IMG/VR virus record: IMGVR_UViG_3300046690_000086
Span: 1-49,359 of that record
Direction: 5' to 3' (one strand)
Length of the DNA stretch: 49,359 bases
DNA from: a virus
The notes beneath the pieces are model-generated. The model had not been told where the DNA came from. It saw only the letters and a program-made list of their open reading frames with translations, and searched no databases. A program made the position numbers and the translations under genes. Positions within the stretch are counted from its first letter, which is position 1. Each line of letters starts with the position of its first letter. Below, in pieces: positions 349-49,359 of the stretch.

Positions 349-788
349 TACTTCTTCTTTCTATATTTTGCTGATCTTAAATTGATGCATATTCTGCAAC
401 TTCTAGTACCTTCTTTACGATAGTAGGTATTTTCTTCAGTAAATTCATGCCCATTTTTACAATAAATTCTAACTATGTCTGCATTATTTTCCTTAGCTGT
501 ACCTACATAGAGATGTTCAGGATTCCAACATGCTCTACTCGGACATTCGGGCTTATGATTTGCTTGTAGTGAATCACTTAGTTCTAAAAAGAATATAGCA
601 GATAATCTATGGCAATTATACATTCTTCCATCATGCCATATTTGACCGTATCCCTCATTATTTAGTGAACCCTTCCATATTAAACAGTCGTTATTCCACA
701 ATGACTTCTGAAACATCCTCTCCAATAACTGTTTCCTCTCGCTTTCTATATTTTCGTAAGTCTTTATAATTGTCTCCGATCTCGACAT
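348..788 (-). CDS. HNH homing-type endonuclease
   Basis: HNH_3-type nuclease. Seen: an N-terminal CLIWKG motif, GYGQIW, NCHRLSAIF (first His), ANHKPECPSRACWNPEHL (catalytic NHK and the distal N-x-x-H), then a C-terminal zinc-like segment (CKNGHEFTEENTYY ... CRIC) common in phage HNH enzymes. Family role: site-specific DNA nicking or cutting that spreads the gene into alleles lacking it. It sits exactly between polymerase and the DUF3987-like gene, overlaps the polymerase 3' end out of frame, and its stop forms the same UAAUG that polymerase forms in allele B. The start is uncertain: ATG at 788 (146 aa) is used here; TTG 725 and ATG 716 (122 aa, SD GGAG 3 nt upstream) are alternatives. The first residues are read from polymerase-derived sequence, so they may not be native. 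Confidence 0.85.
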   Translation of the reverse strand: MSRSETIIKTYENIESERKQLLERMFQKSLWNNDCLIWKGSLNNEGYGQIWHDGRMYNCHRLSAIFFLELSDSLQANHKPECPSRACWNPEHLYVGTAKENNADIVRIYCKNGHEFTEENTYYRKEGTRSCRICINLRSAKYRKKK

Positions 789-3201
789 CGCAAGGTAGCT
801 TAAGAAGTCTACGGGGTAAGGAGCAGGTGTGGAAATCAATAGGTCTCTCCATTTCTTTTTTAGCCATTTCTACAAAGTCATCTAAATATTCTCTTCTCAC
901 ACTAAACAAAAGGGAATCATGGGCTTCGAGAATAATCTTTGCCCCAGGAAATTTCTTTTTAATTCTTATCCCCGCCGCTTTAGTGTTATCGGTTACAGCT
1001 CTCTGTGGAAGATACGCAAGAGCTTCTCTTTCAAGATCAGGCCCCATACGTTCGTAGAAGATGCGCACTCCACCATGAGGTGCATCTATTCCCCACGGTT
1101 TTGGCGCCACCAATCTTCTTTTACTTTTAATGGCTTCAATGACTTCAAAATGGAAGACTTTCTGGATGAGAGGCTGTCTTGTATGAAATATCTTAAGAGC
1201 ACGCTCTGCTTGAGCTTCTGTAATAGTAAGAGGAATTTTGAATTTGCGTGCTTGAGTGTTGACCTCTGTTGCTGCTCTCCTTTTTGAAGCACCAAGGTGT
1301 GCGGCGTGTCTGAGCGTCTTACCCGCGAATCTAATGGGACTTTCATATCCGAGTATTTTCTTTGAATAGTCATCTTCTACTCCTCCAAAGAACCATGATG
1401 CTGTCAATGCATGAAAATCATGTGTATCTATGTCCTCTAGTGCTTGTTCATCTGTAGCTAAGTTGAATATTACTCTCGCTTCGGCTTGAGATGAGTCCAG
1501 CTGGACGAAGACTTCTCCCTCATCAGGCTCATACATTCCTCGCACGTCCGACCCTATGTCTCCGTGCTTAGTGAAGACTTGGAACGCACAGCCCATAGGC
1601 TTCATGTCTACCTTACGTCCCTTTCCCTTGATGTCTACCAAGGGACGGATGGGAGGATCTTGCTGCCCTGTGGACGTGCGACCTGTCTCAAGACACATGA
1701 AGCAGGTAGTCCGCATCTTTCCATCGTAGTCTGTAAGTGCGAATAAGTAGGTAGAGAGGGTCTTCCTGACGCGCCTGCGTTCTAGAGCCTTCTCTATCCA
1801 CTCCCTGTAGGGCTGATACTTAACTCCGTTCTGTAAGTTGAGAAGTGCGGTTAGCTCCTCTTCGCCCGTCCCCTTTCTTCTCGGAAGTTTCCATATGTCA
1901 AAGAGGAGATTCGACACTTTCTCAGAGGAGTTTGGATTGACATCTACTCCTGCGAGTTGGAACATCTCATATCCGAGTCTCTCATCCCACTCTACATACT
2001 TTGTGATTAATTCGGCCCTTCGGGTCTCGTTGACTCGGAATCCATTATTCTCTATCTCCAGATAGAAGTCAGGTAGAGTCATCAGAAAGTTCTCGTAGAA
2101 CTTCCGCATCCCTAGTTCATCTAAGTCAGAGTCCATCGAGTCATTTACTTCATACGTGACACAAGCATCTCGTGCGCATCCGAGCAGGAGATCTCTATAG
2201 CTCCCCTCATACATGCCTTCGTCCTTGTAGAAGGGTTCTCTCGTATAAATGCTTGTATTAAATGCAAGCCCCTTCGGGAGTTCAGGGTTAATTGCAAAGG
2301 CTTTGAGCATCGTATCCGAATGTATTCTACGTATTGCAAATCCCAGTCTTCGTATTTTGTCTCTATCGTAATTGAAGTTGTGCCCAACAATGTCCTTCTC
2401 CCATAAAACTTTGGACAACATAAGCCACATGGATGCGAGGTCGGAGTCGGGTATCGTGGATATTCCGTCGCGGTTCCACAGAGGGACTGTCATTCCATGA
2501 TGTTTATTGAACGCAAGTCCGATGCAGATAGGGAGACAGTGTCCGCCTGCTTCGATGTCTACTGAGAGAGTCAGATGATGTTTGTATCTCTCCAGAAAGC
2601 CATGGAGTTCACCTGAGTTCTGGGCTATCTGTAACGTGCGGGAGGGAAGCTGTAGGATCGGACTGACAGACTCCTCAAGTGCGCGTTTGAAGTCGAAGAT
2701 TATTACCTGTCGATTCCAATACCCCTTGATCTCGCCACCTGAAAAACTATGTAGCAAGTGCGCGGGATGATAGGTAGGGACAAACTTCGTACCCATTCCC
2801 CACATGATTGATCCTCGGTGCTTAGAAATCTTAGTCTTCCCGCTGAGTGCCCATAAAGCAGTCCCACCGAGAGCGAGAATAACGTTGGGTCGAATATCAT
2901 TAATCTCAACTTGTAGTTCCTCTAATTGTTTATCTACGTTAATCCCGCTCGCAGTCGCGCGTTGGTAGAATGATTGACGCTTGGCTCCTATGTTCGGAGG
3001 GACTTCATACTTGCATACGTTCGTGACCCAGCAGTCTGCGCGAGAAATGCCCGCATCTTTGAGGAGCCTGTCTAATTCTCGTCCTGACGCACCTACGAAC
3101 GGGCGACCTGCTAATGTTTCTTCACGCGCGGGTGATTCGCCTAGAATCATGATTTTAGATGAAACAGAGCCGACGCCTGGGACATATTTATGCTCACTCA
3201 T
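691..3201 (-). CDS. Uracil-DNA glycosylase-like / family A DNA polymerase fusion (allele A)
   Basis: Replicative polymerase, 836 aa. Residues 1-165 are a family-4/5-type UDG domain: GESPA (21-25), GRPFVG (32-37), VTNVCK (59-64), HPAHLL (145-150); the usual N-terminal Fe-S CxxC is absent. Residues 205-360 are a DnaQ-like 3'-5' exonuclease: DIE (215-217), GHNFNYD (273-279), ARDACVTYE (343-351). Residues 380-810 are PolA: motif A LDSSQAEAR (568-576), motif B R624/K628 and motif C HDS (761-763), so both metal-binding Asp are present. The O-helix has His632 and Leu636 where Phe/Tyr and Tyr are usual. A UDG-like N-terminus on PolA is known from SPO1-type phages. The C-terminal tail differs from allele B because of the HNH insertion. 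The start ATG lies 2 bp after the upstream zinc-ribbon stop. Confidence 0.95.
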   Translation of the reverse strand: MSEHKYVPGVGSVSSKIMILGESPAREETLAGRPFVGASGRELDRLLKDAGISRADCWVTNVCKYEVPPNIGAKRQSFYQRATASGINVDKQLEELQVEINDIRPNVILALGGTALWALSGKTKISKHRGSIMWGMGTKFVPTYHPAHLLHSFSGGEIKGYWNRQVIIFDFKRALEESVSPILQLPSRTLQIAQNSGELHGFLERYKHHLTLSVDIEAGGHCLPICIGLAFNKHHGMTVPLWNRDGISTIPDSDLASMWLMLSKVLWEKDIVGHNFNYDRDKIRRLGFAIRRIHSDTMLKAFAINPELPKGLAFNTSIYTREPFYKDEGMYEGSYRDLLLGCARDACVTYEVNDSMDSDLDELGMRKFYENFLMTLPDFYLEIENNGFRVNETRRAELITKYVEWDERLGYEMFQLAGVDVNPNSSEKVSNLLFDIWKLPRRKGTGEEELTALLNLQNGVKYQPYREWIEKALERRRVRKTLSTYLFALTDYDGKMRTTCFMCLETGRTSTGQQDPPIRPLVDIKGKGRKVDMKPMGCAFQVFTKHGDIGSDVRGMYEPDEGEVFVQLDSSQAEARVIFNLATDEQALEDIDTHDFHALTASWFFGGVEDDYSKKILGYESPIRFAGKTLRHAAHLGASKRRAATEVNTQARKFKIPLTITEAQAERALKIFHTRQPLIQKVFHFEVIEAIKSKRRLVAPKPWGIDAPHGGVRIFYERMGPDLEREALAYLPQRAVTDNTKAAGIRIKKKFPGAKIILEAHDSLLFSVRREYLDDFVEMAKKEMERPIDFHTCSLPRRLLKLPCDVEIGDNYKDLRKYRKREETVIGEDVSEVIVE

Positions 3202-5342: not shown

Positions 5343-5591
5343 TTAGTTATCCTTGTCCTTATCGAGAGAGTCGAAGTCAAGGTTCATCTGGACAGGTTCG
5401 TCATGTGAACTGACTACTATGACGTATCCGACTATCTCCTCTGATGAGTGACTGTCCATCATGACAGGTTCTATCGAGATGTCTTCCATCAGTGTATCTT
5501 CTTCGTTGATAGTCACGAAGATAGGTTTCTTCAGTGCCTCGATAGGCAAGTCATGCAGGAGTGCGAGTAGTTCCTCAACAGATATCATCAT
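5343..5591 (-). CDS. Small acidic hypothetical protein
   Basis: 82 aa, rich in Asp and Glu, with an N-terminal amphipathic segment (VEELLALLHDLP) and a DFDSLDKDKD tail. It overlaps the upstream gene by four bases, with AGGATG before the double ATG, so it is translationally coupled. The form is that of many phage early proteins of unknown function. No motif identifies it. Confidence 0.6.
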   Translation of the reverse strand: MMISVEELLALLHDLPIEALKKPIFVTINEEDTLMEDISIEPVMMDSHSSEEIVGYVIVVSSHDEPVQMNLDFDSLDKDKDN

Positions 5592-5773
5592 CCTAATCCT
5601 CCCCTAGCTCCATTGTCTAGACTCTTTTTCGAGAACTTCCTCTTTTTCAAAGACTTCAGTTCTTTCAGCAGTGAGTGCGTGTCCTCGATGCGCGTCTCCA
5701 GTTCTCGGATATAGACGTTTAGTTGTAACTCAGTGTATGACGCGACGATAGAGAGTAGTTCCTCTTTAAACAT
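5588..5773 (-). CDS. Small coiled-coil hypothetical protein
   Basis: 61 aa. Residues about 10-50 form a likely coiled coil (leucine heptads in YIRELETRIEDTHSLLKEL) followed by a basic patch KKRKFSKK. It overlaps both neighbours by a few bases. No family recognised; the basic coiled coil could mediate oligomerisation or nucleic-acid contact. Confidence 0.55.
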   Translation of the reverse strand: MFKEELLSIVASYTELQLNVYIRELETRIEDTHSLLKELKSLKKRKFSKKSLDNGARGGLG

Positions 5774-9717: not shown

Positions 9718-11844
9718 CTACTTGCGACCTTTCTTGGCGTTGTGGGCGTTGACGATAGATGCTGCTAGCTCTTTCATGATGGCATCTTCGTTCCAGACTT
9801 CAGCCTCTCCCTTGTTCATGAGGGAGTGGAATCTAGACCGCTTGCCTTCGATGATCGCATCTAGCTTCGGGTCTGTCGTAGTTAGCCCCTCTAAGTGCGC
9901 GTAGATGGCGTTAACTGATACAGATACGGCTCCGATGCGAATGAAACGTCCTTCACACTGTTCTTCCTTGCCGGGATTCCACTGTCTCTCATGCATGAGG
10001 CAGTCGCAGCAGGTTTGGAGGTTCATTCCTTCACCTAATGCTAACTGTGAGCCGACTAGTAGTGCGCGTGGGGACTGGTTGAACTTATCGCACGTTTCGT
10101 TACGCGCGAATGAATTCATGTCTGCTGTGTATTGCAGGACTGGCATGTCATTGCCATACTTCTGTTTTAGTTCTTCGAAGAGGATGGCTTGCACGTCTCT
10201 GTGATGCGCGAAGATAACCAGCTTTCTGTCTGTCTCTTCGACAAATTCATCGACGTATTCTAGTGTCGCAGGGACTTTAGCGAGTGCGACTAGATGACGC
10301 ATCTTTTGCATGGCTGCTATGATAGCCATGCCTGACAGAGCCTGAGCCTGAGATTCGTACCACTTCACGAACTCATCGACTGCTGCATCATAGTCCTGCT
10401 CCTCTTGAGGAGTCATCATGATGTTCAGCTTAGTGCGATTGACTGTCGGCAGTTCTGCGAGGACTTCACGACGTTCACGTCTGACGCAGATATCCTTCGT
10501 GTATTCTTTGAAAGCGTTGATCTTATGACGTTTGATTCCGCCTTCTTTCAGGAACTGACCCTGATAGAAATACTCTACCCAATCGCGCTTGAACTTCTCC
10601 TCTGATGGAAACTTCATAGGATCCATCATGTTGAAGACTGGGAATAGTTCTGAGCCGCGATTGTTCCACGGCGTCCCCGAAAGTGCGATTACCTTACGTC
10701 CCTTCACGATACGACGGACCATCTGCGTCCTAGATGAGTCAACATTCTTTATCTGCTGACATTCGTCAAGGACTACACACTTAATTCCGACTCTATCGAA
10801 CTGTGAGATATCGAAGCCAGATGAGACAACCTTGCCGGACTTGAGTGTCCGTGACTTCTGGACTAGCATGTCATAGCCGATGATGTAGTGCTTCAGTCCC
10901 GGCCAGAGATAATCCTTCGATGTGTTGACTATCTGTGGGATATGCTGTGCATTCTTCGGATCAGGGTTCATCCAGTTCAGGATTACACTGGACTTCTGAT
11001 ACTTAAGGCCGGACTTGTCTATCCACAAGATAGGCCAGAGGGATGGAGTGAAATATACGACTCCGGCAGCTTGTATCGTCTTGCCTAGTCCCATCTCATC
11101 GAAGCATGCCGCGCCTTTGTTGACAGCTAGACCTGCCTCAAGGAACTTCATTCCTTCTATTTGGAAGTCGTAGGGACGATAGCGTGAGCAGAGGACACAC
11201 TTGTTCTTGTTCCACTTATGCTTGCATGAGTCGGAGCCGCCTACGTGGAACGTATGGAACGGTGTTCCCTTAGGGACATTGGTTACGATCTTATGTCCGC
11301 ATTCGAGCATTGCGATATGCAGGTCAGGTTCTGTATCTCCGAGTGTTCGTATCGTCTCTTCGGAGATCTTGACCGCGACCTTTCCGCAGGTGGGACACTT
11401 CTCTTGTAGGCGGGTGATGTTGTACTTAGGTGTCCGGACTATCTGTTCTTCGAATGCGATAGGGACTTGAATGACTTTCTCGTCGAAAGTTATCTCGACG
11501 TCTGCCCCTGACCGAATCGCATCTATGACGCGCGGATCTAATGAGAGGTTAGAGCAGGGAGCCGTATGCGTGCAACCTAACTCTTTAGCCTTTTGGATCC
11601 AGACCTCATCGTGTGCATGACCCGGTGTCAGGGCATGAGCTATCTCATGCCTAACGGTGTTGTGGACATCCTCGACCGGATGTATGTCGATGTGATGTGC
11701 GGAGATGATGATTGCTCTGTCTCTGTGTGAGCAGAGACCAAGGAATCGAGAGTTAGAGTCTTGATTCAGACGTGCGGACCAATCTTGCAGCCCATGTCTG
11801 TTCATCTCTTCTCTCATGAATTGTGTTGCTGAACTTCTGTCCAT
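9718..11844 (-). CDS. SprT-like metalloprotease fused to SNF2-type helicase
   Basis: 708 aa. Residues 1-95 form a SprT/Spartan-like domain: HEIAH at 66-70 and the GHAHDEVW follow-on at 75-82, supplying the zinc ligands. Residues 145-220 contain CPTC, ECGH and CKHKWNKNKCVLC, a zinc-ribbon linker. From about 224 a superfamily-2 SNF2 helicase follows: RPYDFQ (Q-like), MGLGKT (251-256), DECQ in place of DEAH (360-363), SGTPWNNR (389-396) and a late QCEGRFIR motif VI with GEGMNLQ motif V. Likely role: removal or remodelling of proteins on DNA during replication or transcription. It has the TCCGAAAGGAC leader seven bases before its ATG. Confidence 0.9.
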   Translation of the reverse strand: MDRSSATQFMREEMNRHGLQDWSARLNQDSNSRFLGLCSHRDRAIIISAHHIDIHPVEDVHNTVRHEIAHALTPGHAHDEVWIQKAKELGCTHTAPCSNLSLDPRVIDAIRSGADVEITFDEKVIQVPIAFEEQIVRTPKYNITRLQEKCPTCGKVAVKISEETIRTLGDTEPDLHIAMLECGHKIVTNVPKGTPFHTFHVGGSDSCKHKWNKNKCVLCSRYRPYDFQIEGMKFLEAGLAVNKGAACFDEMGLGKTIQAAGVVYFTPSLWPILWIDKSGLKYQKSSVILNWMNPDPKNAQHIPQIVNTSKDYLWPGLKHYIIGYDMLVQKSRTLKSGKVVSSGFDISQFDRVGIKCVVLDECQQIKNVDSSRTQMVRRIVKGRKVIALSGTPWNNRGSELFPVFNMMDPMKFPSEEKFKRDWVEYFYQGQFLKEGGIKRHKINAFKEYTKDICVRRERREVLAELPTVNRTKLNIMMTPQEEQDYDAAVDEFVKWYESQAQALSGMAIIAAMQKMRHLVALAKVPATLEYVDEFVEETDRKLVIFAHHRDVQAILFEELKQKYGNDMPVLQYTADMNSFARNETCDKFNQSPRALLVGSQLALGEGMNLQTCCDCLMHERQWNPGKEEQCEGRFIRIGAVSVSVNAIYAHLEGLTTTDPKLDAIIEGKRSRFHSLMNKGEAEVWNEDAIMKELAASIVNAHNAKKGRK

Positions 11845-11851
11845 TAGTTCT

Positions 11852-11862
11852 GTCCTTTCGGA
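11852..11862 (-). promoter_or_regulatory. TCCGAAAGGAC translation leader (copy 1)
   Basis: On the minus strand TCCGAAAGGAC ends seven bases before the SprT-SNF2 ATG. TCC and GGA can pair around a GAAA tetraloop, and AGGA is the ribosome binding site. The same element precedes three other early genes. Confidence 0.7.
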
Positions 11863-11900
11863 ATGCAGATAAGTGAGTGAGTGCGACTAGTCTAGTTAAT

Positions 11901-11943
11901 GTCCGTCCGACTGAGTGACTGAGTGACTGAGTGACTGACGGAC
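11901..11943. repeat. 8-bp tandem repeats inside an inverted repeat
   Basis: GACTGAGT is repeated three times plus a partial fourth copy (11909-11939), framed by GTCCGTC (11901-11907) and GACGGAC (11937-11943). An 8-bp palindrome GACTAGTC lies at 11885-11892. Possible protein-binding iterons; no function shown. Confidence 0.6.
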
Positions 11944-12614
11944 TAGATTAGGCCCATGTTGGTTGCGACAATCTTTGCCGCATCCTCACATGAGAGATTC
12001 TTCGACACGGAGAGACGTTGGACTGAGACGAGCGGGACACCCGGATATTTGGCTACAGCTTCCATCAGAGCTTTCTTGCTGAACTTAATAACAGGAGTCT
12101 TGGCGACAGTCGGCTTGGTGGGAGTTTTTACGACGTTAGGCTTGTAGTTCACATCGAGTGTCTTGTATTTCGCGCGATCCTTCTCATGCAATGTTGCCGC
12201 AAGAGCCTGAGCATTGACCTGTATCGCGTATCTCTGATTCTCGACTGCTACTAACTCAGCCTTCATGTTGAAGATTACTTCTGACAGATGTTTGATACGC
12301 GCGGTTGCCTCATCTAGAATCTTGAATTTCTTATCTGCATCTGCAATAGATGGATTCTGATTGACGGCAGCGGATATCTCGACGAAAGGTATCGTACCAG
12401 CTTTGAACAAGTCAGCTTTGACTTGTATGTCTGAATCGACTTTACGTGCATCCTCGACTACTTTAGACGTACGCGCGACCGATGCAAGCTCTTCGTCAAG
12501 ACATTCCTTGCATAACCACATATTGTGATGAGCGGGGAAGATCTTGACATTCTTTCCACCGCCATTTAAGTGCGTAGCTTCACACTCACCTATTTTGAAC
12601 GCTAGTGGTGACAT
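11943..12614 (-). CDS. 223-aa hypothetical protein with zinc knuckle and coiled coil
   Basis: The N-terminus carries Cys9 (GECEATHL) and CKEC (about 35-38), with nearby histidines, a plausible zinc site. Residues 45-145 are a long alpha-helical, heptad-containing segment. Residues 155-180 are a Lys/Thr/Pro linker (TPTKPTVAKTP) leading to a small C-terminal domain. ATG 12614 overlaps the upstream stop as UAAUG. The arrangement suggests a scaffold-like DNA-associated protein; function unknown. Confidence 0.6.
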   Translation of the reverse strand: MSPLAFKIGECEATHLNGGGKNVKIFPAHHNMWLCKECLDEELASVARTSKVVEDARKVDSDIQVKADLFKAGTIPFVEISAAVNQNPSIADADKKFKILDEATARIKHLSEVIFNMKAELVAVENQRYAIQVNAQALAATLHEKDRAKYKTLDVNYKPNVVKTPTKPTVAKTPVIKFSKKALMEAVAKYPGVPLVSVQRLSVSKNLSCEDAAKIVATNMGLI

Positions 12615-12850
12615 TACTTCGCTCCTATCTTACGAGCAGCTTTACGTGATAGTTGGACTGCTGGAGTGGACTGGACTGTCTTAGACGGACGGACTGATTT
12701 GACTGAAGATTTGACCCGCGACCCAGAATGGAATCTACACGTTCCAGTTCTGTTGATAGGATTTTCTATCACATCGTAGTGCTGAACGTCTGACGGTAGG
12801 ACACGGACTCGCTTAATCCGCTTGCAGATTACACAGAAGAATCGCTTCAT
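12614..12850 (-). CDS. 78-aa basic protein
   Basis: Highly basic (many Lys, Arg, Ser), with CVIC near residue 6 and a Ser/Val/Lys-rich centre; it lacks a second CxxC. It has a TCCGAAAGGAC leader ten bases before ATG 12850. Coupled to the next gene by UAAUG. Basic charge suggests nucleic-acid binding. Function unknown. Confidence 0.6.
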   Translation of the reverse strand: MKRFFCVICKRIKRVRVLPSDVQHYDVIENPINRTGTCRFHSGSRVKSSVKSVRPSKTVQSTPAVQLSRKAARKIGAK

Positions 12851-12860
12851 GATTCTAACT

Positions 12861-12871
12861 GTCCTTTCGGA
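12861..12871 (-). promoter_or_regulatory. TCCGAAAGGAC translation leader (copy 2)
   Basis: Identical 11-mer on the minus strand, ten bases before the ATG of the 78-aa basic protein. Confidence 0.7.
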
Positions 12872-12882
12872 TGTTTATGGGT

Positions 12883-13152
12883 TTACGACTTGTATTCTGA
12901 TTCATCGATGCAGCCACAGGGATTCGATGTATCTGCTCCACACTGTGAGCAGTATTCTACATCATCGTCGTTTGCATATTCATTGACTGTTCCATAGTCC
13001 AATGAACCTGTAGACTTGCATTTACGGCATACGGCATCACGCCAGTTATCAGACTTCTGGCTATCTGGAGACTTCATTACTTGAGGATTACCGCACTCTT
13101 GACAAGTGCGTATCCAATCGGTAGGTTTGAACTGAGGGAATCTGAGAGACAA
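12883..13152 (-). CDS. 89-aa multi-CxxC zinc protein
   Basis: Contains CQEC (residues 17-20), CRKC (about 42-45), CSQC and a CGC pair near the C-terminus, enough for two zinc ribbons. No ATG fits; the start is a TTG at 13152, supported because the conserved TCCGAAAGGAC leader lies exactly eight bases upstream, the same spacing as in another family member. Likely a nucleic-acid-binding protein; function unknown. Confidence 0.65.
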   Translation of the reverse strand: MSLRFPQFKPTDWIRTCQECGNPQVMKSPDSQKSDNWRDAVCRKCKSTGSLDYGTVNEYANDDDVEYCSQCGADTSNPCGCIDESEYKS

Positions 13153-13160
13153 GGGGACAC

Positions 13161-13171
13161 GTCCTTTCGGA
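13161..13171 (-). promoter_or_regulatory. TCCGAAAGGAC translation leader (copy 3), supports a TTG start
   Basis: Identical 11-mer on the minus strand, eight bases before the TTG start at 13152-13150. Confidence 0.7.
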
Positions 13172-13178
13172 TATCGTG

Positions 13179-13320
13179 TGACATATCTTGTGGCTAGATA
13201 TGTCAGTTAGTAGGCGTTCGCCACGCCTCTATTGTCGCCCGAAGGCGATCCGCTTGTCAATAGGCACCTAAACGTTGCAGACAAAGGGGTTAGGGCCGCC
13301 CCATCCATTGAACGACCCTA
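13179..13320 (-). other. Intergenic region with several hairpins
   Basis: TGACATATCT (13179-13188) pairs with AGATATGTCA (13196-13205). Further on are TCGCC-cgaa-GGCGA enclosed by CTATTG/CAATAG, and GTTAGGG/CCCTAAC around a 20-nt loop. No T-runs. Reads as a structured leader or processing region between two zinc-protein genes; no gene seen. Confidence 0.5.
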
Positions 13321-13342
13321 ACACGACTATAGACTCTTGTTG

Positions 13343-13741
13343 CTAGATCTTATCCAGTCTCTTAAAACGAATCAATTTGTCAATCTCTTCTTCAGTTACT
13401 TCGTCCAATGCTTTCCCCGTCTTCTCTGCGATCTTACTGCGGGCTTCGTATCTCTCGAAGTCAAAATCATCAGGTGCGACGTATTCAACTCCTGCTCTAC
13501 ACGTTGTACATAGAGGTTTATCGTCTTTCATGTTCTCAGAGTCAAGTACGAATGGATCCATACATCTGTTACACAATGACAACTTTCCTTCTACTTGATT
13601 GGCGACGTTGAATGGCATGTAGTGCGTACAATCAGGTAAATTGCACGCCCATACGCCCCGACTCTTGTCAATAGGACTGACCCCAAATGCGTATGGATAG
13701 ATACGTGTGTACTGATGTGTGTGGCTCTTCTTCCTAGACAT
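13343..13741 (-). CDS. 132-aa multi-zinc-ribbon protein
   Basis: Begins with a basic MSRKKSHTHQ tail, then CNLPDC, CNRC and CTTC pairs (about residues 34-82) and a helical C-terminus. The cysteine spacing suggests zinc ribbons. ATG 13741 has GAGGATGG upstream. It is the first minus-strand gene left of the AT-rich core, so it may be transcribed from there. It could be a regulator; no family recognised. Confidence 0.65.
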   Translation of the reverse strand: MSRKKSHTHQYTRIYPYAFGVSPIDKSRGVWACNLPDCTHYMPFNVANQVEGKLSLCNRCMDPFVLDSENMKDDKPLCTTCRAGVEYVAPDDFDFERYEARSKIAEKTGKALDEVTEEEIDKLIRFKRLDKI

Positions 13742-13860
13742 TTTTCCATCCTCGCTCTCTCTGAAATAGGACAGTTTACCCTCTCCCTCTCTCCCTCTCC
13801 ACCCCGATTCTAGTCGAAATCCCGACGTGTGTCAAGGGTTCGACACCACGGCAAGACATG

Positions 13861-13934
13861 TGCCAAAGATAAGAGGAAAGATATGTAAAAAAAATATATA
13901 TAATAATATATAACTATTATCTTTCTACTTGGCA
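13861..13934. other. AT-rich core with inverted flanks, candidate replication origin
   Basis: About 40 bases (13880-13920) are almost entirely A and T. They are flanked by TGCCAA...GATAA (from 13861) and the inverted TTATC...TTGGCA (to 13934). Such DNA-unwinding elements beside palindromes are typical of origins; equally it could supply TATA-like promoter -10 boxes for leftward transcription. Confidence 0.4.
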
Positions 13935-14027
13935 TCTGGTTTGCCGATGTACGTGGACACCAGTTAGCCCAAAAGGGGTCAGGAGAGAGAGAGAGGGAGA
14001 GTCTCTATGTCCCATCTGTAGGACACA

Positions 14028-14043
14028 TATCTTACGTAAGATA
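14028..14043. promoter_or_regulatory. 16-bp perfect palindrome
   Basis: TATCTTACGTAAGATA is a perfect dyad ending three bases before the 21-bp operator-like palindrome. Candidate binding site for a dimeric regulator. Confidence 0.5.
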
Positions 14044-14045
14044 AG

Positions 14046-14066
14046 TGATACTGATTCCCAGTATCA
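14046..14066. promoter_or_regulatory. Operator-like palindrome TGATACT-N7-AGTATCA (site 1)
   Basis: Perfect 7-bp arms with a 7-base spacer. The same arms and spacing recur at 15196-15216, on the other side of the two small GC-richer genes. Probably a repressor or initiator site. Confidence 0.65.
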
Positions 14067-14230
14067 AGTCGCACAGCTTAAAAGATCTTTCGCAAGAGAA
14101 TGAGTCGCACAGCCTCGCCGCACAGCCCAAAGGGCTATCCGCAGGATATGGATGGGATAGGTGGTACGGTAGAGGTAGTACAGGCGGGGAACGGTAGAGG
14201 TGGGTCCAGCTCTGCTGTAAGAGAAAGGAG

Positions 14231-14249
14231 CCAGACGCGATGTCTGGCC
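14231..14249 (-). terminator. Intrinsic-terminator-like hairpin after the 74-aa gene
   Basis: GCCAGAC (14231-14237) pairs with GTCTGGC (14243-14249), loop GCGAT, extendable with flanking GG/CC. On the minus strand it is followed by TCCTTTCTCTT, a T-rich tail. It lies just downstream of the 74-aa gene's stop. Confidence 0.55.
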
Positions 14250-14261
14250 CCCGTGACAGAG

Positions 14262-14486
14262 CTAGTGAACGACGTCGGCCGGAGATGCGACGATAGAAAG
14301 GAGCATCGAGAAGGCCTCACGAAGGATGTCGTTGACGTCGAGAAGTGACAGGGCGGCGAAGACGATGGTCTTCTCCTCTTCGGTCTGAGGATTTGGAATC
14401 CTCTGTGCAAGCGCCTTGATAACGACCTTCTCACACTTGACCTGCAAGTCGAAGGCCTTCTGGATTGCGTCTAGCTCGTTCGTCAT
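14262..14486 (-). CDS. 74-aa hypothetical helical protein
   Basis: Mostly helical with no Cys-based motif: an N-terminal ELDAIQKAFDLQVKCEKVV helix, a central NPQTEEEK turn and a hydrophobic C-terminal helix. It has the TCCGAAAGGAC leader eight bases before ATG 14486. Base composition here is more GC-rich than in surrounding genes. It could be a small host-takeover or regulatory protein; function unknown. Confidence 0.6.
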   Translation of the reverse strand: MTNELDAIQKAFDLQVKCEKVVIKALAQRIPNPQTEEEKTIVFAALSLLDVNDILREAFSMLLSIVASPADVVH

Positions 14487-14494
14487 GATAACAC

Positions 14495-14505
14495 GTCCTT
14501 TCGGA
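14495..14505 (-). promoter_or_regulatory. TCCGAAAGGAC translation leader (copy 4)
   Basis: Identical 11-mer on the minus strand, eight bases before the ATG of the 74-aa gene. Confidence 0.7.
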
Positions 14506-14536
14506 ATCGCGGGTGGGAGCAGGGTTGCTCCAGAAG

Positions 14537-26828: not shown

Positions 26829-28098
26829 ATACTTGAGTCCCGACGATGGAAATGGATCCGTAGGTGGGGAAGAGACTGATACGTTCGAACTTCTGTCAGA
26901 GGAGCCGGAGGAAGTTTTAGAGATTGGAAAGACTGATAAGGGTGGCGGAGACGACGACGAGGAGGAGGAGAAAGATAAAGAAGATAAAGAAGATAAAGAG
27001 GACGAAGAAGATGAACTAAAGGAGATAGAAGAGGAACTTGAGGGGCCTAAAGAGGAGGATTTAGAACTTACAACTCCTGTCAGGAGGAAAGAGATTCTTG
27101 CGAAGTATCCGAAGCTGTTCAAGGATTTTCCGTATTTAGAGAAGGCATATTACAGGGAACAGCAGTTTACTGAAGTCTTTCCGACAGTCCAAGAGGCCAA
27201 GACTGCGGTAGAGAAGTCGAAAGTCATAGATCAACTTGAACGTGAACTTCTGAATGGAGATATCACGTCCGTCTTACGCGCGGCTAGGCAGGAAAATCAG
27301 GAATCATTTCATCGGATTGCGGATAATTATCTCGGTGCGTTGCGAAGTGTCGATCAGCAGGCTTATTATCACGTCCTAGGAAACGTCGTCAAGGATACCA
27401 TCATTACGATGGTTAGAGAAGCACGGAATCTAGGGGAACAAGGTGCTCCGTTACAGGCTGCGGCGAATATACTTAATCAGTTTGTGTTTGGTAGTCAGAA
27501 TTTTAAACCGCCTACAACCTTAGCGAAACAAGTTAGGCCAGAAGATCAGAACAGAGAGCAGGAGTTTCAACAGAGGGAATATCAGCGAGTCATGAGTTCT
27601 TTCGAAAGTACGAAAGATGACTTGCAAACCCGCGCTGATAATGTCCTGAAGTCTACGATAGACCAGCATATTGATCCTAACGGAACTATGACTGGTTATG
27701 TGAAGAAGAATGCTACGAAAGATGCCTTCGACAGCTTGGAGACTCTGATTAGTAAAGATGCGCGCTTCAGGGGACTACTAGACAAGTTGTGGGAGAAGGC
27801 ATTTCAGAGTAATTTCGACAAGGACACGACGGACAAGATTAAAGCTGCCTACCTTAGCAAAGCAAAGACACTGTTGCCATCAGTGATTAAAAAGGCCAGA
27901 AATGAAGCTTTGAAGGGATTAGGCGGTCGCAGAAACGGGTCAGAAGAAAGAGAAAGAGAAAAAGAGAAAGACAGTGAGACTTCTACTGTAAAAAGAAGTC
28001 CTTCAGGGAGTCCACGGCCCCCGTCTGGTGGAAAGATACGTAAGCCATCTGATATTCCGAAAGGAATGTCTACATTAGACGTGTTTATGAAAGATTGA
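26794..28098 (+). CDS. Scaffold protein
   Basis: 434 aa. An acidic low-complexity N-terminus (runs of Glu/Asp/Lys, about residues 40-90), then long helices (AREARNLGEQG, QEFQQREYQRV), and a basic Ser/Pro C-terminus ending in LDVFMKD. Length, acidity and position between portal and capsid fit a podovirus scaffold that directs capsid assembly and leaves the head. It overlaps the portal by 35 nt; a TTG near 26836 is a possible alternative start, but no better ATG is seen. Confidence 0.75.
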   Translation: MRIRMHNLLYSEYLSPDDGNGSVGGEETDTFELLSEEPEEVLEIGKTDKGGGDDDEEEEKDKEDKEDKEDEEDELKEIEEELEGPKEEDLELTTPVRRKEILAKYPKLFKDFPYLEKAYYREQQFTEVFPTVQEAKTAVEKSKVIDQLERELLNGDITSVLRAARQENQESFHRIADNYLGALRSVDQQAYYHVLGNVVKDTIITMVREARNLGEQGAPLQAAANILNQFVFGSQNFKPPTTLAKQVRPEDQNREQEFQQREYQRVMSSFESTKDDLQTRADNVLKSTIDQHIDPNGTMTGYVKKNATKDAFDSLETLISKDARFRGLLDKLWEKAFQSNFDKDTTDKIKAAYLSKAKTLLPSVIKKARNEALKGLGGRRNGSEEREREKEKDSETSTVKRSPSGSPRPPSGGKIRKPSDIPKGMSTLDVFMKD

Positions 28099-46948: not shown

Positions 46949-47193
46949 TACTCTGACATCCCAATTAAAGGTTTAACAGTTCCAGTTTCTATTAGTCTAT
47001 CCATCCATTCCGTAGGACTTTTGAATATTCTTCGTCGTCCCTCGTCATGCATATTGAGTAACTCCGCATAATGTGCTTGGAGTTTTAGGGATTCTTCGAG
47101 TGCGATAACTATTTGTTTATAATTGTGCTTCAGTCTTTGTTCTTCGTCCATAAATCTCCTCCATATTGTTCCATCAGCTAACCACCAAGTCAT
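46948..47193 (-). CDS. 81-aa hypothetical protein
   Basis: Helical (DEEQRLKHNYKQIVIALEESLKL) with Trp-rich start MTWWLADGTIW. Coupled by AUGA to the DUF3987-like gene and by UAAUG to the zinc-finger gene. No motif of known function. Confidence 0.6.
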   Translation of the reverse strand: MTWWLADGTIWRRFMDEEQRLKHNYKQIVIALEESLKLQAHYAELLNMHDEGRRRIFKSPTEWMDRLIETGTVKPLIGMSE

Positions 47194-48467
47194 TTTCCCT
47201 TACCTGAGAATCTTCTTTTCAGCTCTACGACTTGTAATTCAGGCATGAGATAGATGATTTGATTCCCTATAGACTGACTCTTGATCATTCCTGCTTGATC
47301 GAAGGACAGCATTATCTCGTCTAGCTCAGAAGCCTCTCTGTAGTGCGACCACATCTGCTTGAGCAGCATAGCGCGACTGATGGAATGCGTCTCTCTCGTC
47401 AGGAGTTCTTGGATAATCAGGTTCTTAATGTTCTTCGCCTCAGAGAGTCCCTTCTTTCCATGCGTCATCTCACGGACATTTCCGACTAGCTTCTCCGAAT
47501 ATTCTATGGCTAACTGCATACTGTCTGTGTCGATGTATAGTTCTGGACTTCTGGCGAGTGCGAGCAACATAGCGACTTTCAGGACTGAATCCCCGAAGCG
47601 ATTAAGAGTCCCTGTGTCATCTTTCAAATCTTGTGTCAGGACTTGATCTATGAAGTTCTCATACCACTTCTGATAGAGTAGTCCTGCAGAAGAGAAGTAG
47701 TTAGTCTCTCCTGTGACATGCTCGACATGCGGAATCGTACACTCCTCCGTGGGTTCTTTACTCCCTAAAGGACGGAATGGGCCTTTTAGTTCTGACAGGA
47801 CTTTCAGGTAGTCGATGTGGTCCGAATATTTGGGTGGGTTATTTAAGGGAAGTAAGAGAGAGTTCGCGCGATTCCGTTTCGACTCAGAGACTATGAACGT
47901 GCGAGCAAAATAACCACCGTGTATATCTTTCTTAGCAAAGAAATCATTCGAGTGAGCTTCATTGGTCGCAGTCAACATGGTGATAGTCGGATCTTTCAGA
48001 TTGAACTGTTCCATCTTCAACAGAGAACGCCACTCCCCGATGTTGTACTGCCTGTCGTACAAGTCTGTCAGGATATCCGTCGCTACTTTATCCTCCACTA
48101 TGGAAGACGTCAGTTCGCTTGAGCAGATGAATGCGACGGACTTCGTTATGACTCTCCCGCCCGGCTGTGTCTGAGCTGTCCCTAACTCCTTCAGAATCCC
48201 TTGTATGGAAGATCGACCTGAGATAATCCTCGTGCCACCTACGCCACGTACTAATTGCTTTGCCATCGAAATAGGTGGGCCTTTCTTCAGACCCGACTCG
48301 GCGTGAAACATCACGTAGATGTTTGGGTACAAGTTGTAGATTTGTCGGTCGAGCCATATGTTATCCTTTACGACTGCTGAGATTGATGCGAGTCCACCCC
48401 AGAACCAAAAGTTAGTTGGACTTTCTAGTTCAGAGTGTTGGGAGAGTAGTTTTTCGATCCATGTCAT
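47190..48467 (-). CDS. DUF3987-like replication ATPase
   Basis: 425 aa. Phage DUF3987-like protein: a degenerate Walker A AESGLKKGPP (residues 56-65, lacking the usual GKS/T), a Walker-B-like FICSSELTSS (about 113-122), MLTATNEAHS and GGYFARTFIV segments, and a helical C-terminus. Family members are replication-linked helicase/primase-type ATPases in phages and mobile elements. It follows polymerase directly, joined as UAAUG. The first 116 codons recur at 1-348 in allele A. Confidence 0.75.
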   Translation of the reverse strand: MTWIEKLLSQHSELESPTNFWFWGGLASISAVVKDNIWLDRQIYNLYPNIYVMFHAESGLKKGPPISMAKQLVRGVGGTRIISGRSSIQGILKELGTAQTQPGGRVITKSVAFICSSELTSSIVEDKVATDILTDLYDRQYNIGEWRSLLKMEQFNLKDPTITMLTATNEAHSNDFFAKKDIHGGYFARTFIVSESKRNRANSLLLPLNNPPKYSDHIDYLKVLSELKGPFRPLGSKEPTEECTIPHVEHVTGETNYFSSAGLLYQKWYENFIDQVLTQDLKDDTGTLNRFGDSVLKVAMLLALARSPELYIDTDSMQLAIEYSEKLVGNVREMTHGKKGLSEAKNIKNLIIQELLTRETHSISRAMLLKQMWSHYREASELDEIMLSFDQAGMIKSQSIGNQIIYLMPELQVVELKRRFSGKGK

Positions 48468-49359
48468 TACACTTCCACTTCCTGAATCTGAAATTTAAAT
48501 TTCTTCAAGTCTCTGTAATTCTCTCCGACTTCTACGTCACATGGGATCTTTAATAATCTGCGAGGTAGCGAGCAGGTCTTGAAACTTATCGGGCGCTCCA
48601 TCTCTTTTTGTGCAAGTGCGACGAATTCATCTAGACAATCTCTTTTAACAGAGAAAAGAAGTGCATCATGAGCTTCGAGAATAATCTTCGCTTCAGGGAA
48701 CTGTCGTTTAATCCTAATACCTGCTGCTTTGGTATTATCAGTAACGGCGCGTTGAGGAAGATAGGCCAAGGCTTCTCTAAACAAATCATCTCCCCATCTC
48801 TCATAAAATATGCGTACACCACCTCTGTCGGAATCGATTCCCCAAGGGAGTGGTGCGATGAGTCGTCGAGTAGCTTTGATGGATTCGATGACTTCATTGT
48901 GAAATACCTTTTGAATAAGAGGCTGTTTCATATGGAAGATTTTTAAGGCTTTCTCTGCTTGAGCTTCCGTAATAGTGAGAGGAATCTTATACTTCCGCGC
49001 TTGAGTATTGAGTTCCGTGGCCGCGCGTCGTTTTCCTGCGCCAAGATGGCCCGCATGGCGTAGAGTCTTTCCTGCAAAACGTATCGGTGATTCGTATCCG
49101 AGAACCTTTTTGGAATAGTCATCTTCTACTCCTCCGAAGAACCAGCTTGCAGTTAGTGCATGATAGTCATGTTCGTCTATGTCTAGTAAGGCTTGTTCAT
49201 CTGTGGCTAAGTTAAAGACTACGCGCGCTTCGGCTTGAGATGAGTCCAGCTGGACGAAGACTTCTCCCTCATCAGGCTCATACATTCCTCGCACGTCCGA
49301 CCCTATATCTCCGTGCTTAGTGAAAACTTGGAACGCACAGCCCATAGGCTTCATGTCTA
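48120..49359. repeat. Diverged duplicate of 1-1608 (terminal overlap/allele)
   Basis: Bases 48120-48203 equal 1-84 exactly; the last about 120 bases match 1488-1608 with two visible changes. Between them the copies are diverged homologues of the same genes, except for the HNH gene present only in the first copy. This indicates an unjoined circular or permuted contig with two strain versions, or much less likely a real tandem duplication. Confidence 0.85.
48467..49359 (-). CDS. PolA C-terminal part (allele B), cut by the right edge
   Basis: The last 297 residues of a UDG/PolA fusion like the one at 691-3201, about 80% identical; the frame is open to base 49359. It includes motif A (LDSSQAEAR), motif B with R/K and the same unusual His and Leu (RHAGHLG), and motif C HDALLF. 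The tail ends in EVEV, shorter than allele A, and its stop overlaps the DUF3987-like ATG as UAAUG without an HNH gene. Probably the HNH-free allele of the same locus rather than a second gene. Confidence 0.8.
   Translation of the reverse strand, partial: DMKPMGCAFQVFTKHGDIGSDVRGMYEPDEGEVFVQLDSSQAEARVVFNLATDEQALLDIDEHDYHALTASWFFGGVEDDYSKKVLGYESPIRFAGKTLRHAGHLGAGKRRAATELNTQARKYKIPLTITEAQAEKALKIFHMKQPLIQKVFHNEVIESIKATRRLIAPLPWGIDSDRGGVRIFYERWGDDLFREALAYLPQRAVTDNTKAAGIRIKRQFPEAKIILEAHDALLFSVKRDCLDEFVALAQKEMERPISFKTCSLPRRLLKIPCDVEVGENYRDLKKFKFQIQEVEV

Follow-up and report, generated by a model that had tools for sequence, protein, structure and literature searches.

A Shine–Dalgarno hairpin repeated before several genes of an uncultured tailed phage, and a small CxxC...CxxH protein that may read it

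IMG/VR virus record IMGVR_UViG_3300046690_000086, an uncultured virus sequence of 49,359 nucleotides, was analysed whole as the window, and all counts given for the window cover the complete record. Four of its genes are preceded by the same 11-mer, TCCGAAAGGAC, which, judging from related viral loci, forms the apex of a larger hairpin in the RNA, with a UCC/GGA stem, a GNRA loop, a bulge of 2–5 nt on the 5′ side and an outer stem of variable sequence. Comparison of sequences establishes this predicted structure, the location of the Shine–Dalgarno sequence (SD) within it, its association with gene starts and its co-occurrence with MKRF, a small basic protein with a CxxC...CxxH motif. We think it probable that these parts belong to a translational regulon of the phage: MKRF would bind the hairpins and control, probably repress, its own gene and several others.

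Four hairpins in the window

The window contains exactly four copies of TCCGAAAGGAC, where shuffled sequences give an expectation of 0.02, and all lie on the minus strand (11852–11862, 12861–12871, 13161–13171 and 14495–14505). The initial annotation had placed four identical minus-strand 11-mers 7–10 bases ahead of starts, and all of its coordinates hold, the spacing being 7 bases to the ATG at 11844, 10 to the ATG at 12850, 8 to the TTG at 13152 and 8 to the ATG at 14486. The sole further copy of the 10-mer that precedes the final C, at 28056 on the plus strand, is followed by A instead of C and lies within coding sequence. The hairpins and the genes behind them are as follows.

11849 to 11869, minus strand: Hairpin 1, TCTG-CAT-TCC-GAAA-GGA-CAGA, ahead of the helicase start at 11844
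9718 to 11844, minus strand: SprT-like and SNF2 helicase fusion, 708 aa, putative target behind Hairpin 1
12857 to 12875, minus strand: Hairpin 2, AAC-A-TCC-GAAA-GGA-CA-GTT, ahead of the MKRF gene start at 12850
12614 to 12850, minus strand: MKRF gene, 78-aa basic protein with CxxC...CxxH, candidate RNA-binding regulator and putative target behind Hairpin 2
13157 to 13179, minus strand: Hairpin 3, ACACG-ATA-TCC-GAAA-GGA-CGTGT, ahead of the TTG start at 13152
12883 to 13152, minus strand: 89-aa Cys-rich protein of unknown function with a TTG start, putative target behind Hairpin 3
14492 to 14511, minus strand: Hairpin 4, CGCG-AT-TCC-GAAA-GGA-CGTG, ahead of the start at 14486
14262 to 14486, minus strand: 74-aa protein of unknown function, putative target behind Hairpin 4

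Hairpin 1 combines an outer stem of 4 bp, a 3-nt 5′ bulge and a GNRA loop, with the SD inside the stem; it scores 29.9 bits with the covariance model, and its GGA is predicted to be paired at 0.98. The outer stem of Hairpin 2, which is located in a 32-bp intergenic gap, is weaker (predicted minimum free energy (MFE) −3.0, GGA paired 0.92). Hairpin 3 has an outer stem of 5 bp and scores 33.7 bits, and Hairpin 4, with one G-U pair in its outer stem, scores 21.5 bits.

A terminase large subunit is encoded in the window together with a UDG–DNA polymerase A fusion and the SprT–SNF2 helicase fusion, which makes the virus a tailed phage. The label 'early genes', given to the four genes in the initial annotation, is plausible and fits the gene content. 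Cultured phages gave no nucleotide-level match to the 6-kb region, and a helicase profile search of genome contigs for a prophage found no relative and hence no host.

Covariation and start association among relatives

Relatives were gathered through the helicase, first 12 and in the end about 78 viral loci, 1.19 Mb in total; relatedness among these loci lowers the effective sample size behind every count given here. The same core is found ahead of starts in relatives at 67–70% helicase identity and below. Within the 1.19 Mb, TCCGAAAGGA occurs in 80 distinct contexts, 72 of them with a plausible start at the right distance. The next base is C in 70 of these 72, and the copies lacking that C are mostly inside coding sequence. 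Between GGA and the start there are most often 7–9 nt, with a range of 6–11 nt, and the start is ATG in 64 of the 72. The element has one orientation only, at a fixed distance to the start codon. When the pattern was relaxed to NCCGNRAGGAC, 127 of 138 distinct matches had a plausible start at the right distance, so the element is confined almost entirely to starts and does not occur equally often elsewhere.

The TCC/GGA stem with a GAAA tetraloop around the SD, as first annotated, is not lost in relatives; it is kept and extended by a covarying outer stem, and the annotated hairpin is therefore real but only the top half of the structure. The outer stem begins at an invariant G-C pair, the bulge is found only on the 5′ side of UCC, and the arms flanking relatives' copies differ widely, examples being CACG...CGTG, TCCG...CGGA, CTCG...CGAG and TCTG...CAGA. 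An outer stem of at least 4 bp can be formed by 37 of the 72 distinct start-associated copies, as against 9.1 ± 2.5 (maximum 20) in 5000 partner shuffles, in which right flanks were exchanged among copies. If the 3′ arm is shifted by 1, 2, 3 or 4 bases, which preserves sequence relatedness, only 15, 3, 4 and 1 such stems remain. In a fixed-register seed alignment both sides change in three of four outer pairs, the fourth being the invariant G-C; as this alignment was picked by bulge size, the shuffle is the unbiased test. An earlier seed alignment (A2) was dropped because its ends were misregistered, and A3 was used instead.

The covariance model finds variants at the same gene starts with the loops GAGA, GUAA, GCAA and GGAA. 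Among 55 TCC-N4-GGA hairpins with an outer stem at starts, 50 have a GNRA loop, against a background of 3.6%. A scan over all loops returned tetraloops only, and a scan over all inner stems found enrichment only for TCC/GGA with GNRA; other inner stems with GNRA loops were rejected, as they showed no enrichment. The inner stem is not free to vary, its 3′ strand being the SD. In elements of the ACC subtype, the A of GGA could still find a partner in a U one position further 5′. The UCC or ACC subtype agrees among elements of one genome (p = 8e-5, a value confounded by phylogeny), and agreement in loop type was not significant. The GGA of the SD has a predicted pairing probability of 0.83, compared with 0.46 at other SDs of the same loci, and the hairpins are predicted to be moderately stable (mean MFE −5.5 kcal/mol). 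The element is thus a conserved base-paired one overlapping the SD, as are structured RNA translational operators in general. A known RNA family was rejected: in Rfam 15 the window had no match at gathering, and the element region none at E<=5.

Could the 11-mer be merely a favoured, strong ribosome-binding site (RBS) that has been copied among genes? AAAGGA is a good SD at a spacing of 6–11 nt, and the same 11-mer precedes ATG in many unrelated viral contigs. In these unrelated viruses, however, the stem is missing: 5 of 115 contigs with the 11-mer and ATG have an outer stem where 3.3 are expected. Given this lack of excess, the bare 11-mer is generally an ordinary SD variant, and it is this phage group that has the structured form. 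In addition, the outer arms covary and the loops vary within GNRA, so that the copied-RBS account is already contradicted by covariation and we regard it as scarcely credible. The initial annotation had offered 'a shared translational switch or a phage-specific initiation signal'. Its notion of a shared translational signal is strongly supported by the retained stem and the covarying outer stem; the reading as no more than a strong RBS is not, given a buried SD and covarying flanks.

A role of the dyad at the DNA level, as an operator or a promoter element, is also very improbable. The dyad does look like an inverted repeat, and the extended start-associated sequence (ESAS) repeats of cluster K phages were so interpreted by their authors. 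Against this, the outer arms share complementarity only, with no common sequence, the orientation and distance to the start codon do not vary, and the second copy in the window is confined to the short gap between two genes.

The genes behind distinct elements are most often the MKRF-C zinc-finger gene (46 by clustering, 44 by a stricter match) and the helicase (34), followed by more than 20 other families, mostly small ORFs. The helicase has the element in 33 of 59 distinct relatives, and where it does not, a small inserted ORF bearing the element is often directly upstream. As the element is tied to changing and diverse gene families, it can be described as a modular control element. Beyond the initial annotation, then, the analysis adds the covarying outer stem with its 5′ bulge, the variation of the GNRA loop and the association with a single small gene.

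Two further sets of contigs were noted. L020 and L264, viral contigs of ~62 kb, have an MKRF-type gene with a hairpin ahead, in which an extra bulge separates the G-C pair from the outer stem; they may be a second lineage. In four unrelated contigs (L031:752, L074:5807, L075:2705 and L030:2113), TCCGAAAGGA lies in a longer perfect stem, e.g. GGG-TCC-GAAA-GGA-CCC, with a T run directly after it and then ATG, resembling a terminator hairpin that also contains the SD.

MKRF and the proposed regulon

MKRF proteins are ~50–80 aa long, with a basic stretch and the invariant residues M1, R3, F4, C6, C9, P19, R34, G36, C38 and H41. In the AlphaFold model, residues 1–40 (~92 pLDDT) form a zinc-finger-like N-terminal fold, and the C-terminal part is of low confidence. 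No match to MKRF was found in cultured phages at E<=1. The element lies ahead of 46 of 50 distinct ORFs with the MKRF motif; the other four comprise two degenerate forms, one without an element (L006) and one apparent chance match. In 33 of 41 loci the hairpin of MKRF is weaker than the others of the same locus.

Of 41 records, 34 have MKRF, and every one of these has CCGNRAGGAC; the seven without MKRF have no usable element. The sole pattern match among those seven, CCGCGAGGAC in G040, was not counted, as ATG follows directly and leaves no room for normal spacing. The MKRF-negative record G035 (64% helicase identity) has a plain RBS on its helicase and also on a gene whose homologues elsewhere carry the element. 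Co-occurrence (34 of 34 against none of seven) is thus a strong but indirect pointer to MKRF as the cognate trans factor.

Another phage or host protein might read the hairpin instead: the binding of MKRF is itself inferred, and host factors could not be profiled, as the search for a host had found none. In a gene-content screen of 15 near-complete records, however, MKRF was the only family found in all 12 element-bearing records and in none of the three lacking it. A 61-aa basic protein (window 5588–5773, minus strand), at first present in 11 of 12 and 0 of 3, was rejected as a rival trans factor after wider sampling, where it was missing from many element-bearing records. We therefore judge a reader other than MKRF improbable.

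In the mechanism we favour, an mRNA hairpin encloses the SD of a set of phage genes and, as proposed, thereby reduces free access of ribosomes. MKRF would most likely recognise the invariant GNRA loop, the upper stem and the bulge, and bound MKRF would control translation of its own gene and several others, including the SNF2 helicase. Both the binding and its sign are what we infer. Repression, as autogenous feedback, seems more likely than activation, since the SD is part of the conserved half proposed for recognition and the MKRF gene is the commonest target. The weaker hairpin of MKRF's own gene is compatible with either.

Activation by melting is the main rival to repression. MKRF would bind and melt the hairpins in the way that Com of phage Mu acts on mom, and would itself be made first thanks to the weaker hairpin of its gene. 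Com sets a precedent, and the weakness of that hairpin at most loci would avoid deadlock. With moderate predicted stability, on the other hand, ribosomes could open the hairpins unaided, and a protein bound to the half that contains the SD would be expected to block it; on balance we think activation unlikely. It is also rather improbable that the hairpin acts alone, as a thermosensor, through ribosome gating or through mRNA stability, with no dedicated trans factor and MKRF a mere target. Stems that sequester the SD are able to work unaided, and as MKRF is the most frequent target its co-occurrence with the element is partly built in. An intrinsic gate, however, could do without an invariant GNRA loop and without a 5′ bulge, and genes other than MKRF likewise lack the element in MKRF-negative relatives.

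Several observations weigh against the regulon with MKRF as its repressor. About one third of the copies, mostly those ahead of MKRF, lack a clear outer stem of at least 3 bp in the simple geometry. Few MKRF-negative near-complete records (G035, G038 and G040) underlie the co-occurrence, its counts lack phylogenetic independence, and the most frequent target is MKRF itself. A fold search with MKRF gave no significant match, and 33 members compared with Pfam gave no confident match, the best weak ones being generic zinc ribbons or fingers (E>=0.0059). Finally, MKRF lacks its own element in the L006/L007 lineage and stands behind a plain RBS in L259.

As to the loci concerned, L006/L220, L007/L221 and L259 have an ordinary RBS ahead of MKRF, and the helicase of L006/L007 keeps its hairpin.

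Known systems and other features of the window

The coat-protein operator hairpins of MS2 and Qbeta have a small loop, a short upper stem, a 5′ bulge and a variable lower stem, and overlap the RBS. The hairpin described here is like them in architecture; they differ in belonging to RNA phages, in having a single target gene and another loop, and in being read by a protein that is not a zinc finger. CsrA/RsmA sites expose GGA in a hairpin loop, unlike the element here, in which GGA (pairing 0.83) makes up the 3′ side of the stem and the loop is GNRA.

The closest published pattern is the start-associated sequence (SAS) of cluster K mycobacteriophages, a 13-bp repeat, GGGATAGGAGCCC, that contains the SD and is found before a subset of non-structural genes (PMC3203893). 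Both are repeated immediately before the starts of a subset of genes; those behind SAS are of different families, mostly with ATG starts, and the function of SAS is not known (PMC3203893). The ESAS repeats do not show RNA covariation, whereas the element here covaries and has a candidate trans factor, and its core is TCCGNRAGGAC, not GGGATAGGAGCCC.

Phage T4 RegA is one small protein with proposed control of many phage mRNAs at the initiation region (PMC3014915). Its sites are A+U-rich without apparent structure (PMC3014915), whereas those here are a conserved, covarying GNRA hairpin; RegA and MKRF appear unrelated and would have multi-target regulation in common. Com of phage Mu, a small zinc-finger protein whose tail is disordered, acts on mRNA hairpins near the start codon of mom (PMC6483171), and MKRF would resemble it in all of small size, zinc-finger type, hairpins near the start and control of translation initiation. 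Com has CCCC ligands, ~62 aa, a site with a six-residue loop beside an inhibitory stem, and one target, mom, which it activates (PMC6483171). MKRF, in contrast, has CxxC...CxxH (ligands C6, C9, C38 and H41), a GNRA-capped hairpin containing the SD, and many putative targets including itself. Its size and low-confidence C-terminal part agree with Com, its ligands do not, and the Com family was not listed in the Pfam scan of the 33 MKRF members.

We found no match for the system in Rfam, Pfam or the open-licence literature, a report available by subscription only being possible. We lean slightly towards an undescribed tailed-phage regulon, in which a new CxxC...CxxH RNA-binding family would read a GNRA-capped, bulged SD hairpin and the hairpin of its own gene would be tuned weaker. 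With the same slight preference, and as a joint part of that reading, MKRF-type proteins would set expression levels for a varying collection of phage genes and for their own. Dedicated translational regulons of DNA phages are mainly represented by T4 RegA, with its unstructured sites, plus single-target systems such as Mu Com. As the operator is recognisable from sequence before more than 20 gene families and there is one obvious candidate for its regulator, the regulon can be predicted across whole genomes and tested directly at the bench. A compact protein–hairpin pair acting on the SD would also lend itself to use as an orthogonal translational switch. Since a 'start-associated sequence' can turn out to be one half of an RNA structure that covaries, it seems worth re-examining similar repeats of other phages.

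Some other features of the window were noted. At 9718–11844 (minus strand), a single phage protein combines a SprT-like domain of metalloprotease type with an SNF2 helicase, and tandem 8-mer repeats (CAGTCACT) at 11901–11940 lie between a 223-aa gene and the helicase hairpin. Primase-like frames at 1–348 and 47190–48467, both on the minus strand and at opposite ends of the record, have a near-identical N-terminus (MTWVEKFLSQHSELESPTNFWFW and MTWIEKLLSQHSELESPTNFWFW), the former frame being cut by the record end. The UDG–DNA polymerase A fusion is encoded at 691–3201 (minus strand), and a second polymerase-A-like piece lies at the other record end, at 48467–49354 (minus strand).

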